From positions 1 through 49,607 of the forward strand of contig NZ_SOHE01000044.1 of NCBI RefSeq assembly GCF_004403305.1: a stretch of DNA of 49,607 nucleotides. The letters run 5' to 3'. The notes under the pieces were generated by a model. It was not told where the DNA came from and did not search any database. It was given only the letters and a program-made list of their open reading frames with translations. A program made the translations under genes and the position numbers. The DNA is from Cryobacterium frigoriphilum (GTDB taxonomy: Bacteria > Actinomycetota > Actinomycetes > Actinomycetales > Microbacteriaceae). Below, piece by piece: positions 28,927-36,810 of this stretch; the stretch's first letter is position 1, and each line of letters starts with the position of its first letter.

Positions 28927-29709
28927 CTAGTTCTTCGGTGTCGCGCGGCGCAGCGCGAGGAACCCGCCGACCCCGGCGACGACGGCCGGCACCAGGAGCC
29001 AGGCGAAGATGCCGGCGATTCCCTGGGCGCCGAACCAGACGGACACCGGGACCCAGTTGCTCGTGAAGGTGATCACGGTGACCGTCGCCACGATGAGCAG
29101 GGCGAGGGAACTCCAGAACACGAGCATGCCGGGCATGCGCCAGCGCATGTAGATCGTCGCGATGGATGCCCCGATGAAGAACACCAGCAGCTGCATCACA
29201 AAGAACGAGAACAGGTCGACCCAGAAGCCGTCGAGCCCGAGCCAGAGGGCATTGAACATGTAGGTGTCAATCCACCAGCCTGAGGTCACCCGTTCCAGCT
29301 GCGTCAGCACCGCAAACGCGATCGCGTTGCCCGCCGAGATCAGTACGAACAGCAGAGCGGTTCCGAGGTAGAAGTCCCGCCGGGTCACCCCATAACCGAG
29401 TGCCAGCGGAAACCCGAACGAGATCGCCTGCACGCCGACCACGACCAGATACCACTGCGGGCTCATCACGGCCCAGCTGTACCGCTGGCCCTCGATCGCG
29501 TCCGCCGTGCCGAGGCCGCCGGTGGTAAAACCGATGATTTGCGCGATGAAGACCGTCACCACGAACGCGATACCCACGATCAGCCAGGGGATACCGATAT
29601 ACGTGCGGCGGTCGACGAGGTGCAGGCGCACCACGTTCCAGATGCGCGTTGCAGCGGATCGCGGGTGAGCGGATGCGGCGGTTGCCGGAAAACTATCGGT
29701 GAGAGTCAT
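28927..29709 (-). CDS. ABC-2 type transporter membrane subunit
   Basis: Polytopic membrane protein of 260 residues with about six hydrophobic segments, beginning near residue 38 (YIGIPWLIVGIAFVVTVFIA) and ending with LLVPAVVAGVGGFLALRR. No conserved motif is diagnostic, but it follows the GntR regulator and ATPase in a coupled operon, overlapping the ATPase by 4 bases, so it is inferred to be the permease. Systems of this layout (YtrA-type) export or sense cell-envelope stress compounds. ATG 29709; the first 25 residues are cytoplasmic and Ala/Ser-rich. Confidence 0.8.
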   Translation of the reverse strand: MTLTDSFPATAASAHPRSAATRIWNVVRLHLVDRRTYIGIPWLIVGIAFVVTVFIAQIIGFTTGGLGTADAIEGQRYSWAVMSPQWYLVVVGVQAISFGFPLALGYGVTRRDFYLGTALLFVLISAGNAIAFAVLTQLERVTSGWWIDTYMFNALWLGLDGFWVDLFSFFVMQLLVFFIGASIATIYMRWRMPGMLVFWSSLALLIVATVTVITFTSNWVPVSVWFGAQGIAGIFAWLLVPAVVAGVGGFLALRRATPKN

Positions 29710-30740
29710 GCGCGTGTGCTCCAGGCATCGGTCGTACTCACGGTGGGTGTGTCGGTATCTGCGTTGGTGTCGCCGGGGTGGGCGGTGCCGCGACGGCGGC
29801 CGGAGCGGACAGTGGGGCGCTCGCTGCGAGCCGATTCACCGAATTCGGCTCCGGAGCGACTCGTGGTGCGCTGCACGATGAGTTGTTGAAGCGACACGGG
29901 GGAGAGTTCCAGACCGGCGGCCCGCGCGGCATCCCGCTCCGCGTCATCGAGGCCGGCCACGGTCACCGAGGCCAGTCCGCCGATACCATCTCGGGAGATG
30001 ACGTCGCGGCCGGCCACGAAGGCGTCAACATCCGCTCTCTTACCGACGACGGTGCTCGCGCTGCCGCGCAGCTCCTCCGCGTCCTGGTCCATCAGGATGC
30101 GCCCCTCATCGATCACCAGAACGTGTTCCAGCAGGCTGCTGACCTCGTCGATCAGGTGGGTCGAGAGTATGACGGTGCGCGGATGCTGGGTGTAATCCTC
30201 GAGCAGGCGATCGTAGAAGATCTGCCGGGCCACGGCGTCGAGGCCGAGGTAGGGTTCGTCGAAAAAGGTCAGCGGTGCCCGCGAGGCGAGGCCGACGATC
30301 ACGCCGACGGCCGAGAGCTGGCCGCGGGAGAGCTTCTTGATCGGTCGGTTCAACGGCAGCCGAAAGTCATCGACCAAGCGATCGGCGAAGGCCGCATCCC
30401 AGTTGGCGAAGAACCAGGGTGCGCTGGCAAGCACATGGTCGGCCCGAAAGCTGTCAGGGTACTTCTGGCTCTCCTTGATGAAGCAGACCTGCTGCAGCAC
30501 TCGGGCGTTCTCGACGGGGGACTCGCCGAAGACCTCGAGCGCGCCGCTGGTCGCGAACTGCTGCCCGGTCAGCAGCTGCATGATCGTCGTCTTGCCCGCA
30601 CCGTTGCGGCCGAGAAGGCCGTAGATCTTGTTGGCTTCGACGCTGAAACTCACGTCGTCGATGGCGGTGACCTTGCCGTAGCGCTTGGTCAGGCCGTCGA
30701 CGCGTACGACGGGGGTGGTGGGGGATGCCGTGCTCGTCAT
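29706..30740 (-). CDS. ABC-2 type transporter ATPase
   Basis: 344 residues. Motifs: Walker A GRNGAGKTT, signature LSRGQLSAVGV (a degenerate LSGGQ), Walker B LTFFDEPYLGLD and switch His in ILSTHLIDE. The altered signature and Walker B (DEPYLGLD) match the YtrB/YxlF-like ATPases found with GntR regulators. The C-terminal 60 residues (after SLQQLIVQRTTS) are Asp/Thr/Arg-rich and unconserved. ATG 30740 overlaps the regulator stop by 4 bases; the end overlaps the membrane subunit by 4 bases. Acts at the membrane. Confidence 0.92.
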   Translation of the reverse strand: MTSTASPTTPVVRVDGLTKRYGKVTAIDDVSFSVEANKIYGLLGRNGAGKTTIMQLLTGQQFATSGALEVFGESPVENARVLQQVCFIKESQKYPDSFRADHVLASAPWFFANWDAAFADRLVDDFRLPLNRPIKKLSRGQLSAVGVIVGLASRAPLTFFDEPYLGLDAVARQIFYDRLLEDYTQHPRTVILSTHLIDEVSSLLEHVLVIDEGRILMDQDAEELRGSASTVVGKRADVDAFVAGRDVISRDGIGGLASVTVAGLDDAERDAARAAGLELSPVSLQQLIVQRTTSRSGAEFGESARSERPTVRSGRRRGTAHPGDTNADTDTPTVSTTDAWSTRA

Positions 30741-31126
30741 GAGCGAATCGCCTCTTCCTGGATCGAACTCGATGTGGGGGTGTCGCGCACCATCTCGGCG
30801 ACCTGCTGCGGGGTGATGCCGAGTTTGGCGGCCTCGCCGAGCAGTGGGGCGACGAATTTCGCCCGAAACTGTTCGGTGCGTGCCCCAATGAGCTGGGCGC
30901 GGGCGCCCGTTGCGACGAACATGCCGATACCTCGCCTCTTGTAGAGAATTCCGTCGTCCACCAGTCGGTTGACGCCCTTGCCGGCGGTCGCCGGGTTGAT
31001 GCGGTAGAACGCGGCGAACTCGTTCGTGGAGGGCACCGGGCTCTCCTCGGCGATCGCGCCGTCGAGAATGTCATTCTCGATCTGCTCCGCGATCTGCACG
31101 AAGATCGGTTTGCTGGAGTCGATCAC
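30737..31126 (-). CDS. GntR-family transcriptional regulator (YtrA subfamily)
   Basis: 129 residues, the short YtrA type: N-terminal winged helix-turn-helix (PIFVQIAEQIENDILDGAI, then STNEFAAFYRINPATAGKGVNRLVDDGILYKRRGIGMFV) with a small C-terminal dimerisation helix instead of a ligand domain. GTG 31126 has GGACGAG upstream. It heads the three-gene operon and probably represses it through the palindrome at 31148-31178. The inducing signal is unknown; relatives respond to cell-wall-active peptides. Confidence 0.93.
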   Translation of the reverse strand: MIDSSKPIFVQIAEQIENDILDGAIAEESPVPSTNEFAAFYRINPATAGKGVNRLVDDGILYKRRGIGMFVATGARAQLIGARTEQFRAKFVAPLLGEAAKLGITPQQVAEMVRDTPTSSSIQEEAIRS

Positions 31127-31273: not shown

Positions 31274-31291
31274 ATGGACCGGGCCGCATGA
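31274..31291 (+). CDS. Candidate leaderless five-codon upstream ORF (MDRAA)
   Basis: ATG 31274 to TGA 31289-31291 encodes MDRAA. The stop overlaps the amine oxidase start as ATGA. With the -10 at 31262-31267, the first codon would be the first transcribed bases, and the main gene would be reached by termination-reinitiation; no Shine-Dalgarno is visible before ATG 31288. Purely a sequence observation; it could also be chance. Confidence 0.35.
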   Translation: MDRAA

Positions 31292-32742
31292 TCACCCGCC
31301 GCACACTGCTCCTCGGCACGGCCTCCGGCCTCTCGGTGCTGGCGCTCGCCGGGTGCACGACCCCGGAGCCCGAGCCCACGCCATCCGTCACCGGCACCCC
31401 AACACCCACGCTCGTGCCGCAACCGCTGACGATGCGCCGCACGAACTGGGCCGGCGACGCCTTTGCCCGCGGATCTTTCAGCTTTGCCGCCGTCGGCGCC
31501 ACCCCGGAGCATCGTGCCGCCCTGCGCGAACCCGTAGCTGACCGGGTCTTCTTCGCCGGCGAGGCGACCGCGATCAGTGAACCAGGCACCGTGCAGGGAG
31601 CCAGGGAATCCGGGCTGCGGGCCGCCGCCGAGGTCGAGGCGATCGCCGACCAGAGCGAGCGCATAGCCGTCATCGGCGCGGGCATGGCCGGACTGTCCGC
31701 GGCCCGGCTGCTCGTTGATGCCGGCTACGACGTGATCGTGATCGAGGCCCGCGACCGTACCGGAGGCCGAATCGACACCGTGACGGATGCCGACTGGCCG
31801 TTTCCGATCGAGCTCGGCCCGAGCTTCATCCGCTCGAGCGCGACCACCGACCTCGACGAGCAGCTGACCGTACTCGGCGCGGCGAGCCTGGAATTCACCA
31901 CCGAGGCCGAGGTGCGCACCCGGGCCGGCACCGTGGTCGCCGTCGACCCGGTTGGCGCCGAGGCCGTGGCCGACGCGCTCGTCTGGGCCGCGGATCAGGC
32001 TCGGGATGTCTCGCTCGAGCGGGCCATCGTGGACTCCGGCAACGGCACGCTCTCGACGACCGTCGGCGACACCGGCGTCTCCCCGGCCGACTGGCTCGAC
32101 TACGACCTCGCGACCGGCCTCAAGGTCACCACCGGCGCGGGCCCCGGCGAAGTGTCGGCCTGGTACGCGCCCGGCGCCCCGGCGACCAGCGATACGAGCA
32201 CGGATGCGAACACCGACGCGACAGAGGATGCCCCGGCCGTGCCGCGCCTCGTGATCGGCGGCTACCGCAGCCTGCTCGACGACCTCGCGACCGACATCGA
32301 CGTCGTCACGTCGAACGTCGTGACCCTCGTCGCCTACGACGATGACGGCGTGAGCCTGCGGCTCGGCGCCGGCGAATCACTGTCGGTCGACCGGGTCGTG
32401 GTCACGATCCCGCTCGGCGTGCTGCAGGACGAGGCCCTCGAATTCTCCCCGGCGCTGCCGTTCGCGCACCGCGGCGCGATCGCCGCCCTCGGCATGGGCG
32501 TGCTCGACAAGGTCTGGCTGCGCTTCGATGAGGCCTTCTGGTCGACGGATGCTCCGCTCTGGACCATCGTCGGCGGCGACCCGGATTTTGCCGTCTGGGT
32601 GAACCTGCTGCCGCTCACCGGGGAGCCGGTGCTCATGGGGGTCGTGGCCGCAGAGAATGCCGACCGGCTCTCACAATTCAGCGACGACGACTTTCTGGTC
32701 GCCGCGCTCAGCGCGCTCGAACCGTTCCTGGCCGCTCCATAA
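31288..32742 (+). CDS. Secreted flavin amine oxidase with circularly permuted FAD domain
   Basis: 484-residue lipoprotein: Tat-like TRRTLLLG and lipobox ALAGC, then a Pro/Thr linker. Residues 50-118 (WAGDAFARGSFSF, FFAGEAT, GTVQGARESGLRAA) match the segment that normally ends monoamine/polyamine oxidases. Only afterwards, at residues 126-160, comes the Rossmann start VIGAGMAGLSAAR and EARDRTGGR that normally begins them. The protein ends at ALEPFLAAP, just where the canonical order would reach the RWxxDPYARGS segment. The order is thus permuted with little lost. ATG 31288 is chosen over an in-frame ATG at 31234 because the signal peptide begins there. It would oxidise amines with FAD, producing H2O2 outside the membrane; substrate unknown. 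The end overlaps the convergent gene by 35 bases. Confidence 0.85.
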   Translation: MITRRTLLLGTASGLSVLALAGCTTPEPEPTPSVTGTPTPTLVPQPLTMRRTNWAGDAFARGSFSFAAVGATPEHRAALREPVADRVFFAGEATAISEPGTVQGARESGLRAAAEVEAIADQSERIAVIGAGMAGLSAARLLVDAGYDVIVIEARDRTGGRIDTVTDADWPFPIELGPSFIRSSATTDLDEQLTVLGAASLEFTTEAEVRTRAGTVVAVDPVGAEAVADALVWAADQARDVSLERAIVDSGNGTLSTTVGDTGVSPADWLDYDLATGLKVTTGAGPGEVSAWYAPGAPATSDTSTDANTDATEDAPAVPRLVIGGYRSLLDDLATDIDVVTSNVVTLVAYDDDGVSLRLGAGESLSVDRVVVTIPLGVLQDEALEFSPALPFAHRGAIAALGMGVLDKVWLRFDEAFWSTDAPLWTIVGGDPDFAVWVNLLPLTGEPVLMGVVAAENADRLSQFSDDDFLVAALSALEPFLAAP

Positions 32743-33448
32743 GGCCCGGCACGTCGGCCTCGGCGTGCGGGCCGGCGGCCGGCCGCACCTGGCCGCCGCG
32801 GCGAGCCAGCACGGCCATGCGCGGGCGCAGGCGGTGTGGTTTCATGCGCGTCGCGGCGGTCAGCAGTGCGGCGATCGCGGTGATGATCACCACGATGAGC
32901 ACGTAGTAGAGGCCCGTTTCGAGCGGCCCACTGACCAACCGGGCGTCGAGAAAGAAGTACGGATACCAGCCGAGCAGATCGCCGCGAATCAGGGTGAAGA
33001 TGAGCCAGAACACGGGAAAGATCAGCACCAGTCCGAGGTGTTTCCACGGCAGGCGGGCCTTGTCGGGGTCGACGAACCAATCGATGACCGCGAGCGCGGG
33101 AATCCAGAAATGCAGAATCTGGCTCGACCACGGAATCGAGATCGCATATGCGACATTCGCCGGCTGAAACGTGATGAGCGCATAGACGACGCCGGAGACC
33201 AGAATGTAGGTCGTGATGCTGACCCGCAGCATGTCGAGCCAGACCGGATCGGTCTCGGTGTGCAGTGCGCGCAGCCCGGCGAGCAGAAAAACCACGCAGC
33301 CCGCCATGCCGCTCTGCACGGTGAAGTAGCTGAAAAAGTAGCTCACGTAGAAGCCTGCGACCCCGAGCGTGAAGACGAAATACCCGATCAGGCCGCACAG
33401 CGCGAGGGCAGCAAGCAGCAGGCGCGCTACTCCAAATGCTCTGCGCAC
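32708..33448 (-). CDS. Pr6Pr-family six-helix membrane protein
   Basis: 246 residues with six hydrophobic segments spread over residues 5-205 and a basic cytoplasmic C-terminal tail. The pattern SYFTVQSG, ILHFWIPALAVIDWF, WKHLGLVLIFPVFWLIFTLIRG and GWYPYFFLD is typical of Pr6Pr/FAR-17a-like membrane proteins, whose function in bacteria is unknown. GTG 33448 follows GGAG at a normal distance. The last 12 codons overlap the amine oxidase end. Confidence 0.85.
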   Translation of the reverse strand: MRRAFGVARLLLAALALCGLIGYFVFTLGVAGFYVSYFFSYFTVQSGMAGCVVFLLAGLRALHTETDPVWLDMLRVSITTYILVSGVVYALITFQPANVAYAISIPWSSQILHFWIPALAVIDWFVDPDKARLPWKHLGLVLIFPVFWLIFTLIRGDLLGWYPYFFLDARLVSGPLETGLYYVLIVVIITAIAALLTAATRMKPHRLRPRMAVLARRGGQVRPAAGPHAEADVPGLMERPGTVRAR

Positions 33449-33537: not shown

Positions 33538-34560
33538 TCAGGCCGAGCCGCGCCAGACGATCGGTGTCTGCAACAGGAGGCCTCCGACGGGTGTCGCCTC
33601 GCCGCGCAGTTGCTGCAGCACGAGTTCGGCCGCTCCCGCCCCCAGCCCGGATGCTGGTTGGTGCACGGTGGACAGTGGTGGTTGAGTGCGCCGAGCCCAG
33701 GCGCTGTCGTCGAAACCCACGACACCCACATCTTCGGGCACGCGGCGTCCCGCGTCCCGCAGGGCCTCGAGGGCGCCGGCAGCCACCGCGTCCGAGGCGG
33801 CGAAGACCCCATCAATCTCGGGCGAGCGCTGCAACAGTTCGCGCATGCCGGCCACACCCGCGGCATAGGCGTACAGCGGCACGCTGGCCACGAGATTTGA
33901 GTCGAAGGCGTCGCCGAGGGCATCGGTAAAACCGGCGAGGCGGTCGGCACCGGAATCGCGGTCCAGCGCGGCGGCGATCATGCCTACCCGGCGCCGGCCG
34001 GTGTCGAGCAAACGCTCGGTCAGGGCGCGCGCCGATGTGCGGTTATCGATGCCCACGAACGGTAAGTCGCGCAGATCAGGCGGATGCCCCACAAAAGCGG
34101 TCGGCAGGCCCAGCTTCTCGACGACCCGGGTGATCGGGTCGTTCTGCCGCGCCGACACGATGATCACACCGTCGACAAAACCGCCGCTGAGGTACCGGGC
34201 CACCCGGGCCGTGTCGCGGTCGGAATCGATGATCAGACACACCATCTGGTAATCAGCGTGGGAGAGCGCCGTATTGGCACCGAGCAGGATGTCCCCAATG
34301 TTGGGGTCTTCGAGAAACAGCGAGTGCGGCTCGTGCACGATGAAGCCCACGGCCTGAGAGCGCTGCATGACGAGACTACGGGCGGCATTGTTGGGCACAT
34401 AGCCGACTTTTTCGATGGCGGCCTCGATGGCAGCGCGGGCGTTCGCGGAGACGTAGGGTTCGTCATTGACTACACGGCTGACCGTGCCGCGGGAGACTCC
34501 GGCCTCAACGGCCACATCGTGAATCGTGGCGCGTTTGCGTCGGGCCGGAACGCTCACCAT
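33538..34560 (-). CDS. LacI-family transcriptional regulator of the galactoside operon
   Basis: 340 residues. The N-terminal helix-turn-helix and hinge (TIHDVAVEAGVSRGTVSRVVN, then GYVPNNAARSL) are canonical LacI; the remainder is the periplasmic-binding-protein-like effector domain (VDGVIIVSA, VGIDNRTSARALTERLLDTG, EIDGVFAASDAVAAGALEAL and a DVGVVGFDDS signature). ATG 34560 gives the usual N terminus; the upstream extension to 34638 is out of family and crosses the operator. It is divergent from the GH42 operon, with two LacI-type sites between, so it is inferred to repress that operon until a galactoside binds. Confidence 0.94.
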   Translation of the reverse strand: MVSVPARRKRATIHDVAVEAGVSRGTVSRVVNDEPYVSANARAAIEAAIEKVGYVPNNAARSLVMQRSQAVGFIVHEPHSLFLEDPNIGDILLGANTALSHADYQMVCLIIDSDRDTARVARYLSGGFVDGVIIVSARQNDPITRVVEKLGLPTAFVGHPPDLRDLPFVGIDNRTSARALTERLLDTGRRRVGMIAAALDRDSGADRLAGFTDALGDAFDSNLVASVPLYAYAAGVAGMRELLQRSPEIDGVFAASDAVAAGALEALRDAGRRVPEDVGVVGFDDSAWARRTQPPLSTVHQPASGLGAGAAELVLQQLRGEATPVGGLLLQTPIVWRGSA

Positions 34561-34596
34561 TGGATACCCATTTATTGACTGTATCGAACCGGAGCC

Positions 34597-34626
34597 TTGA
34601 CAGCGGCGTCGGGATCTGTTTATTCT
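34597..34626 (+). promoter_or_regulatory. Sigma-70-type promoter of the galactoside operon
   Basis: TTGACA (34597-34602), an 18-base spacer and TATTCT (34621-34626). It is the only full -35/-10 promoter I find in the window. Its -10 abuts LacI operator 1. Confidence 0.75.
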
Positions 34627-34639
34627 GTGTACGTTCACA
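34626..34639. promoter_or_regulatory. LacI operator 1
   Basis: TGTGTACGTTCACA, a near-palindrome around central CG, typical of LacI-family sites. It starts on the last base of the -10 element, so bound repressor would block initiation. Confidence 0.75.
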
Positions 34640-34671
34640 GACTCTCAATGAGGAGTTGTTGCTCCCCAATC

Positions 34672-34685
34672 TGTGCACGTTCACA
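34672..34685. promoter_or_regulatory. LacI operator 2
   Basis: TGTGCACGTTCACA differs from operator 1 by one base. The centres are 46 bases apart, a distance compatible with cooperative binding or a small loop, and the site lies inside the leader of the GH42 mRNA. Confidence 0.75.
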
Positions 34686-34740
34686 GAACTGCCTGCCGTC
34701 GGCGCAACACGCCCGAGCGGATACGCCTCAATGGGGAGCC

Positions 34741-36810
34741 ATGACCATCCACGAACTCACGCACACGGCCCTCGCGACGATCACCGCACCGGCCGCGCAC
34801 CGGCCGGTCTTCGTGCACCCCGGCCTCGCCTACGGTTGCGACTACAACCCGGAGCAATGGAGCCCGGAACTCTGGCCCGAAGACGTGCGCCTGATGCGCG
34901 AGGCCGGCGTCGACCTCGTGGCCATTAACATTTTCGGCTGGGCACAGCTCGAGCCGCGCGATGGAACGTTCGACTTCTCCGCCCTCGACACAATCATCGA
35001 CCTGCTGCACGCCGGCGGAATTCGCATCAACCTGGGCACCGGCACCTCGTCGCCGCCGCCGTGGCTCACGACCCTGCACCCCGAGATCCTGCCCGTGACC
35101 GACGACGGCACCCGCCGCTTTCCCGGCGGTCGCCAAGCCTGGTGCCCCAGCTCGCCCGTTTTTCGAGAGCGCGCGTTCGCCCTCGTGGAACGGGTCGCCG
35201 AACGCTACGGGCGGCATCCAGCTGTCGCGCTCTGGCACGTGTCCAACGAGTTGGGCTGCCACAACGCGCTGTGCTACTGCGACTCATCGGCTGTCGCGTT
35301 CCGGCGCTGGCTGGTCGCCCGCTACGGTTCCGTTGCCGCCCTGAACGCGGCCTGGGGTACCTCCTTCTGGAGTCAGGCCTACGGGGACTGGGCAGAAGTA
35401 CTGCCGCCGCTGCAAACCCTCTCCAGCCGCAACCCAGGCCAGGTGCTCGACTTTCACCGCTTCAGCTCCGATGAATTGCTTGACCACTACCGTGGCGAGC
35501 GTGACATCATCCGCCGACACAGCGCCGTGCCCGTTACGACGAACTTCATGGTCACCGCGCACATTCAGAATCTCGACTACTGGAGTTGGGCGCCGCACGT
35601 GGACATTGTGGCCAACGACCATTACCTCGACCACCGCCTGGCCGACCCCACGACCGAGCTGGCCTTTTCGGCCGATCTGACGCGTGGGCTGGCCGGGGGA
35701 GCGCCCTGGCTGCTGATGGAACAGTCCACCGGGGCGGTTAACTGGCAGCCGCACAACCTCGCCAAGGCCCCCGGCCAGATGACCCGCAACTCCCTCGCCC
35801 ATGTGGCGCGCGGGGCCGAAGCGGTCTGCTTCTTTCAGTGGCGGGCATCCGTTCAGGGCTCCGAAAAGTTTCACTCGGCCCTGCTGCCGCACGCCGGCAC
35901 CGACACCGCACTCTGGCGTGAGGTCGTCGACCTCGGCGCGACACTGAACCGGCTCAGTGAGATCGTCGGTACCGTCGTCGATGCGCACATCGCCCTGATC
36001 TTCAGCTGGCCGGCCTGGTGGTCGGGCGACGGCGAATCCCGTCCCTCGCACGAAGTGCGCTACCTCGAGCAGGTGCACGCCGTCTATACGGCTCTGCACC
36101 AGCTCGGACACACCGTGGACATCGTCTCGCCCGACGCCGAACTCGGCGGCTACCGGCTGGTCATCGCCCCCAACCTCTACATGGTGTCCGACCGGCAGGC
36201 CGCCAACCTCACCGACTACGTCGCCGCCGGCGGCCACGCGGTCGTCACGTTCTTCAGCGGCATCGTCGACGACGACGACCGAGTGCGCCTCGGCGGCTAC
36301 CCCGGTGCCTTCCGTGACCTGCTCGGCGTCACCGTCGAGGAATTCACCCCGTTGCTGCCCGGCGACAGCGTGACCCTGGACTCGGGCGCTCGCGCTTCGC
36401 TCTGGACCGAGCGGCTGCGCACCACGAGCGCCGTGGCCATCGCCCGCTACGTCGACGGCCCGTTGCCGGGCGTGCCCGCGATCACCCGTAATGATCACGG
36501 TCGGGGAACGGCCTGGTATCTCGCGACAGCCCTCGCCCCGGAGGCGTTGCGCGTTGCGATGCGCACGGTGGCCACCGGCGCCAACCTCACCGCCATCGGC
36601 CCGGAGGGCGATGGCACCATCGAGGTGGTGAGGCGTCGCGCGACGGTCGGCAGCCCCGGGCCAAGCTACCTTTTCGTGATCAACCACGGCGAGCAACCGG
36701 CCATTGTTCCGGCCCATGGCCGTGAGCTGGTCACCGACGTTCAGATCAGCCTCACCGTCAGCGTTCCGGCCGGAGCCGTGCGCGTCATCAGAGAGGACCC
36801 ATCCGCATGA
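34741..36810 (+). CDS. Beta-galactosidase, glycoside hydrolase family 42
   Basis: 689 residues, predicted cytoplasmic. A TIM-barrel domain begins with GCDYNPEQW; the acid/base is Glu170 in LWHVSNELGCH and the nucleophile Glu327 in LLMEQSTGAVNWQP. The trimerisation domain (about 400-620, with FSWPAWWSG and GYRLVIAPNLYMV) and a C-terminal beta domain complete the usual GH42 layout. It hydrolyses beta-galactosides such as galacto-oligosaccharides. ATG 34741 follows GGGGAGCC. First gene of the operon; its stop overlaps the MalF-like permease start by 4 bases. Confidence 0.95.
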   Translation: MTIHELTHTALATITAPAAHRPVFVHPGLAYGCDYNPEQWSPELWPEDVRLMREAGVDLVAINIFGWAQLEPRDGTFDFSALDTIIDLLHAGGIRINLGTGTSSPPPWLTTLHPEILPVTDDGTRRFPGGRQAWCPSSPVFRERAFALVERVAERYGRHPAVALWHVSNELGCHNALCYCDSSAVAFRRWLVARYGSVAALNAAWGTSFWSQAYGDWAEVLPPLQTLSSRNPGQVLDFHRFSSDELLDHYRGERDIIRRHSAVPVTTNFMVTAHIQNLDYWSWAPHVDIVANDHYLDHRLADPTTELAFSADLTRGLAGGAPWLLMEQSTGAVNWQPHNLAKAPGQMTRNSLAHVARGAEAVCFFQWRASVQGSEKFHSALLPHAGTDTALWREVVDLGATLNRLSEIVGTVVDAHIALIFSWPAWWSGDGESRPSHEVRYLEQVHAVYTALHQLGHTVDIVSPDAELGGYRLVIAPNLYMVSDRQAANLTDYVAAGGHAVVTFFSGIVDDDDRVRLGGYPGAFRDLLGVTVEEFTPLLPGDSVTLDSGARASLWTERLRTTSAVAIARYVDGPLPGVPAITRNDHGRGTAWYLATALAPEALRVAMRTVATGANLTAIGPEGDGTIEVVRRRATVGSPGPSYLFVINHGEQPAIVPAHGRELVTDVQISLTVSVPAGAVRVIREDPSA

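Follow-up and report, generated by a model that had tools for sequence, protein, structure and literature searches.

The relatives of monoamine oxidase share a textbook fold whose parts follow one another in a fixed order. Some bacterial flavin amine oxidoreductases (FAOs) bear a signal for twin-arginine translocation (Tat); according to PMC12224317, those with an adjacent cytochrome c are dehydrogenases and those without one react fast with O2, a lysine beside flavin N5 is nearly universal, and a K-to-E change was tied to the lowest O2 rate measured there. Here we describe a gene of Cryobacterium frigoriphilum, located in a stretch of 49,607 nucleotides (contig NZ_SOHE01000044.1, positions 1 to 49,607; "the window"), whose product carries the parts of such an enzyme in rotated order. 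An earlier note on this DNA had proposed a circular permutation. A rotation scan, conserved breakpoints, hundreds of homologues and confident structural models all support the reading of this protein as a circularly permuted FAO.

The gene is one intact frame encoding 484 residues, and its start codon at 31288 is backed by homologues that open with M-(x)-x-RRT-F/L-L. The product matched PF01593 with 192.4 bits (cutoff 19.8), the match being split over three stretches. LSD2, the best solved relative by sequence, likewise aligned in three stretches and in rotated order, window residues 43-118 pairing with 700-775 at its C terminus. Family-derived segment profiles gave the chain order end segment of the flavin adenine dinucleotide (FAD) domain, Rossmann segment, core, and not the canonical one (Rossmann, core, FAD-end). 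The coordinates, frame and stop were as the earlier note had them, and its motifs stand in the order it gave, with DAFARGSFSF, FFAGEAT and GTVQGARESGLRAA in residues 57-113 and VIGAGMAGLSAAR and EARDRTGGR in residues 128-161. The C terminus reads ALEPFLAAP and then stops, four residues past the end of the core. In the FAD-end segment, the motifs AGE and T-V-x-G-A-x-x-S-G are present in residues 90-109 (profile and LSD2 alignment). The Rossmann segment retains, by alignment, G130, E153, G160 and R161, which we take to belong to the GxGxxG motif, the acidic residue after strand 2 and the GGR motif. By homology, the protein should bind FAD and oxidise an amine. Positions for FAD and catalysis are largely alike in permuted and canonical rows, the exceptions being losses of the N5 lysine and the tyrosine of RGSYS.

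The rotation was located by cutting and rejoining residues 43-484 at 46 places and aligning each product globally to 36 canonical relatives. The mean score rose from 368 for the chain as encoded to 515-516 for cuts at 121-123, the best mean of the 46 cuts, and dropped on either side of this peak, to 276 at the lowest; the best single score, 593, was obtained at cut 113. One rotation, at the peak, makes the protein collinear with its canonical relatives over the full length, as the earlier note had anticipated. A scan with HMMER could not separate the rotations because it sums the pieces in any order, and the global alignment was used in its place. The breakpoints are conserved as well. The canonical loop from core to end segment has a median length of 10 residues (58 rows); permuted chains stop a median of 5-7 residues past the core in three clades, and the junction bridging the old termini has a median of 5-7 residues in these clades (typically 4-7, and 3-4 in some members). 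These lengths place the new termini within one loop and show the old ones to be tightly bridged. Clade labels in these counts, and in the signal and residue counts below, denote the search that found a protein and not its place in a tree.

A frameshift or a misassembly might also mimic a rotated order, as might a truncated enzyme if a second end segment lay close by. The earlier note had pointed to a second GEAT-type segment at the C terminus as one thing to look for; a six-frame profile scan of the whole 49.6-kb window found no second FAD-end segment, the next match scoring 9 bits vs 125. A FAD-end segment at both ends was found in none of 360 proteins, 81 loci and 29 further same-family loci. 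The same order recurs at 44 loci of other genomes and at those 29 same-family loci, some of which are perhaps from the same species. With one intact frame, no second segment and the same order in other genomes, a frameshift or a missing end is ruled out, and we regard an artefact of any of these kinds as practically out of the question. The gene is under purifying selection (ratio of non-synonymous to synonymous substitution rates, dN/dS, of 0.185 vs locus L002 of Cryobacterium melibiosiphilum), and the genome of the window holds a single match to the permuted protein at E <= 1e-5. The parts of the gene and its neighbour are collected in Table 1.

Table 1. Features of the permuted gene and its convergent neighbour (window positions, stop codon included in the coordinates of the permuted gene)
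Feature	Positions	Strand	Basis
Permuted flavin amine oxidoreductase gene, 484 residues	31288..32742	+	Open reading frame, PF01593, segment profiles
Tat signal peptide, twin arginine R4-R5, lipobox L-A-G-C23 (residues 1-23)	31288..31356	+	Sequence, relatives
Pro/Thr-rich linker, mostly low model confidence (residues 24-45)	31357..31422	+	Sequence, model
Relocated FAD segment, the end of canonical enzymes (RxxW..D..RGSFS ... FFAGEAT ... GTVQGARESGLRAA; residues 46-117)	31423..31638	+	LSD2 alignment, profiles
Junction of relocated segment and Rossmann segment (residues 118-122)	31639..31653	+	Profiles
Rossmann FAD-binding segment, the start of canonical enzymes (VIGAGMAG ... EARDRTGGR; residues 123-184)	31654..31839	+	PF01593, profiles
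Variable middle, taken as mostly substrate domain (residues 185-319)	31840..32244	+	Relatives, model, selection analysis
Core, second FAD part and substrate domain up to the new C terminus (residues 320-480)	32245..32727	+	PF01593, profiles, structure alignment
Codon of Lys408, the lysine beside flavin N5 in the superfamily	32509..32511	+	Alignment; role from PMC12224317
Pr6Pr family membrane protein gene (NF038065), convergent, 3' ends overlapping by 35 bases	32708..33448	-	Profile, neighbourhood comparison

Homologues with the same order, a search for which had been suggested in the earlier note, proved numerous. Three protein searches gave 1020, 2639 and 6213 matches; among the best 120 of each (360 proteins), 336 were permuted, 22 canonical and 2 partial, shares that are not frequencies because all queries were permuted. 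In a scan of one genome for each of 84,980 species, 80 of 522 confirmed stretches were kept, comprising 44 permuted loci (open frame) and 36 canonical ones. Within the window's own family, 129 of 398 genomes had a strong match (E <= 7e-50) among the matches listed. Of these matches, 128 begin in the signal (query residue 2-9; the window's from 1) and that of G364 begins at residue 80; a few are partial. Order was read in the window and in the 29 best-matching loci fetched from these genomes, all 29 of which are permuted, some perhaps belonging to species already met. With motif patterns alone, only 91 of 120 proteins were recognised as permuted, 28 could not be assigned, and one (P0117) was mistaken for canonical owing to a fortuitous GEAT in its tail; by segment profiles, all of these 120 were permuted.

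The permuted loci fall into three clades: Microbacteriaceae with other actinobacteria, a Microthrix/Acidimicrobiia type, and Alphaproteobacteria. Cryobacterium, Agromyces, Herbiconiux, Rathayibacter, Microbacterium and Leifsonia are among the genera of Microbacteriaceae represented, and Candidatus Microthrix and IMCC26207 among the further actinobacteria. Judged by sequence, the rotation is a widespread variant of a known superfamily and not an oddity. The names met for permuted proteins are general ("flavin monoamine oxidase family protein", "monoamine oxidase", "FAD-dependent oxidoreductase"), and family profiles, which score the pieces separately, do not reveal the rotation. A literature search of open-access PMC papers, without subscription papers or preprints, found no report of a permuted amine oxidase.

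Structure prediction, also suggested in the earlier note, yielded two confident monomer AlphaFold models (predicted local distance difference test, pLDDT, of 88 and 91), with a high predicted template modelling score (pTM) and high confidence over the relocated segment. Residues 122-484 of the window protein superpose on LSD1, and residues 46-117 are predicted to occupy their usual place in the fold. Foldseek and VIA-align compare structures in chain order and covered residues 122-484 of the window protein and 103-410 of a relative, barely touching the relocated segment. That segment might instead complete the FAD domain of a partner subunit, so that only an intertwined oligomer would be active. 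The models are of monomers only, and the junction of 3-4 residues in some members could favour such a swap; the high confidence over the segment and the high pTM of both monomer models nevertheless make it very unlikely in our view.

The N terminus has a twin arginine, a hydrophobic stretch and a lipobox cysteine, which support the assignment as a Tat lipoprotein made in the earlier note. R4, R5 and C23 are nearly invariant in 71 relatives and invariant in 18 diverse ones, and a crude pattern detected signal plus lipobox in 143 of 159 proteins of the window's clade. From these signals, the protein would be exported and lipidated. By similarly crude patterns, 111 of 124 alphaproteobacterial permuted relatives have a Tat-like signal and 2 of 124 a lipobox, and 47 of 58 canonical relatives have an N-terminal Tat-like signal. 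These counts bear on a further suggestion of the earlier note, that the rotation served to bring the lipid anchor near the FAD domain. The anchor is not a common factor, because the alphaproteobacterial proteins hardly ever carry a lipobox, and export does not distinguish the rotated proteins, because most canonical relatives have the signal too. On these grounds, we rejected the lipid anchor as a general reason for the rotation.

The gene convergent with the permuted one encodes a Pr6Pr family protein (NF038065, 115 bits vs a cutoff of 30). Of the 45 permuted loci (the 44 of other genomes and the window), 36 have a Pr6Pr match downstream, convergent in 35 and on the same strand in L027; these 36 comprise 33 loci titled Microbacteriaceae, the window, and L024 and L034, whose titles are vaguer. 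At the other nine permuted loci, the profile gave no match. Pr6Pr is also present in 27 of the 29 further same-family loci. In the 129 strong-match genomes, going by the places of the matches listed, it lies directly downstream in 123, convergent in all 123, with a median gap between matches of 65 bp. Of the six exceptions, two have the match on a different contig and one has it at a distance of ≈ 15 kb; the other three (G282, G299 and G038) have weaker matches for which no place is listed. Conversely, a close Pr6Pr was defined by E <= 1.3e-38, a threshold chosen with the list in view, and the enzyme gene is present in each of the 124 genomes that have one; some Pr6Pr is found in 344 of 398. 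The other neighbours of the window gene are far less conserved: of the 45 permuted loci, 5 have GntR, 5 the ATP-binding cassette (ABC) ATPase, 8 LacI and 7 GH42. The next largest neighbour cluster comprised 13 loci. A functional link between the permuted enzyme and Pr6Pr is likely but unproven, because convergent genes are not one transcript. The word Pr6Pr occurred in none of the papers of the literature search.

The N5 lysine is retained in 58 of 58 canonical rows, in 124 of 124 rows of the alphaproteobacterial search, in 95 of 97 of the third search and in 133 of 159 of the window's search; by alignment, the window copy keeps it as Lys408. In 19 of the 36 permuted loci with Pr6Pr (L015-L017, L019, L020, L022-L025, L027-L031, L033, L034, L036, L039 and L046), its place is taken by T, S, Q or V; residues other than lysine also stand there in 10 of the 24 readable loci among the 29 further same-family ones. 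A protein 84% identical to that of the window (P0003) has Thr at this position. The Pr6Pr partner gene and these lysine losses are new leads. A scan for CXXCH in frames of at least 70 residues found no plausible cytochrome c near the 45 permuted loci, 37 of them with both 2.5-kb flanks, and a cytochrome c partner was rejected on this result. Given the retained Lys408 and the lack of an adjacent cytochrome c gene, O2 is taken as the acceptor and the window copy as an O2-reactive oxidase, the acceptor being the least certain point of our interpretation. The lysine-less relatives likely use another acceptor.

Alternatively, instead of being an O2-using oxidase, the permuted protein of Microbacteriaceae may cooperate with the neighbouring Pr6Pr, either as a dehydrogenase or as an FAD protein without catalytic activity. 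The constancy of the pair in either direction, the far weaker conservation of the other neighbours and the frequent replacement of the lysine all point this way, as does the low O2 rate that accompanies the K-to-E change in PMC12224317. However, lysine loss and Pr6Pr are not tied, because the window and 14 Cryobacterium loci of the genome scan have both lysine and Pr6Pr. Moreover, the convergent genes are not one operon, the Pr6Pr match of L027 is on the same strand, no function of Pr6Pr is known (the literature search found no paper on it), and the nine permuted loci where it was not found lie outside the Microbacteriaceae group. We consider this alternative possible, if doubtful.

Our preferred interpretation, which we hold to be very probable, is that the protein is a permuted FAO that folds as the usual two-domain enzyme, is exported by the Tat pathway, is likely held by a lipid and oxidises an amine. 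The FAD-binding segment that is C-terminal in canonical enzymes now precedes the Rossmann segment at the N terminus, and the new termini lie in the ≈ 10-residue loop that links the last core helix to the first strand of the FAD-end segment. The chain is predicted by the AlphaFold models to fold into the usual two-domain enzyme. The folded protein would then leave by the Tat pathway, would likely be lipid-held on the outer face of the cytoplasmic membrane and would oxidise an amine there. Several observations weigh against this interpretation. The window protein has Phe in place of the RGSYS tyrosine, which all 58 canonical rows share. The evidence for the position of residues 46-117 in the fold is model confidence. 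We know of no structure or assay of a permuted member, and none was among the PDB sequence matches (best 60 of 107 and best 60 of 94). With the lysine lost at 19 of 36 loci, not all relatives need be oxidases. The scan for cytochrome c found nothing plausible near 36 canonical loci either, and its absence does not, for that reason, set the permuted loci apart. Finally, the neighbourhood in the window (ABC and GntR genes upstream, LacI and beta-galactosidase genes downstream) contains no amine or pathway gene that would name a substrate. At the RGSYS tyrosine position, the 159 rows of the window's search have Phe in 108, Met in 9 and Tyr in 27.

To trace the origin of the rotation, we built trees from 93 rows (48 permuted, 45 canonical) of rotated, linker-free segments. 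These were chosen from 438 available rows, of which a redundancy filter left 192; further thinning was manual, by alternate rows and random, and the four canonical rows L050, L055, L056 and L081 were taken out by hand. The free maximum-likelihood tree had two order changes and a quick tree three, and 1% of 200 bootstrap trees needed a single change. Representatives of the three clades were 36-39% identical to each other vs 40-47% to the nearest canonical row. These results favour the same rotation having arisen two or three times at one loop. On the other hand, a tree holding all 48 permuted rows together was not rejected (approximately unbiased, AU, test, p = 0.26; log-likelihood 8.1 lower), and the breakpoint loop and the N-terminal Tat-like signal are common to all three clades. 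Single vs multiple origin is thus not settled and both readings stand; we give repeated origin a substantial chance, somewhat short of even.

As to the route, the origin by tandem duplication and trimming put forward in the earlier note is possible and would be the simplest. In a tandem copy of a Tat-bearing gene, the signal would end up directly before the end segment of the first copy, and the second copy would then be cut ahead of its own end segment. The tandem layout needed does occur in the superfamily, since three mycobacterial records (L069, L080 and L081) have two canonical FAO genes in tandem on the same strand. A broader proposal would derive an FAO branch across Actinomycetota and Alphaproteobacteria from one permuted, Tat-exported ancestor; in Microbacteriaceae, it would form a two-gene module with Pr6Pr as electron acceptor or substrate gate, freeing many members from the O2-reactive lysine. 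Taken as a whole, we find this rather unlikely.

The remaining flanking genes are less widely shared. Divergent upstream (28927-31126, - strand) lie genes for a GntR regulator, an ABC ATPase and a hydrophobic protein that matches no Pfam family. Among the 45 permuted loci, this trio is confined to the window and four loci of Cryobacterium; the GntR and ATPase genes have one match each among the 29 further loci. Downstream of the pair (33538-36810), a LacI regulator gene diverges from a GH42 beta-galactosidase gene, and the loci with LacI or GH42 are, window aside, all from Cryobacterium.

That a large natural clade has the rotated order suggests that an FAD domain made of two parts can accommodate new termini while the enzyme still works and is exported. 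The clade may serve as a natural series on how permutation affects anchoring, Tat export and folding. The selection of O2 or another acceptor by bacterial FAOs is a question that the almost constant Pr6Pr neighbour and the recurrent loss of the N5 lysine now open to direct testing.

Among described permutations, saposin/swaposin and DNA methyltransferases, as treated in PMC3320104, likewise show a cyclic rotation with the termini moved to a loop. In permutation by duplication, duplicated intermediates can be expected according to the same paper; none turned up among the proteins and loci covered here. The text of PMC3320104 contains neither "flav" nor "oxidase". The Tat-exported FAOs described in PMC12224317 (NicA2/Pnao-type cytochrome c dehydrogenases and Tat oxidases) likewise have an N-terminal Tat signal before the FAO; "permut" has 0 matches in the text of that paper. 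As in the window, its oxidase group combines a Tat signal with the lack of an adjacent cytochrome c. The NicA2/Pnao type, in contrast, has an adjacent gene for a Sec-exported cytochrome c, and the window's family instead has the conserved Pr6Pr neighbour. The nearest canonical rows (P0330, L054 and L050) share 39-40% identity with the window protein across the three segments. Canonical bacterial FAOs of this kind mostly share the Tat-like signal, but have the Rossmann segment first and the FAD-end segment last. Compared with the FAO superfamily at large (PF01593; monoamine oxidase, polyamine oxidase, LSD1/LSD2), the window protein has the same segments, FAD motifs, N5 lysine and predicted fold. 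What differs is the order of the segments, which is rotated relative to that of the four LSD2 entries with alignments shown, where the end segment is C-terminal.
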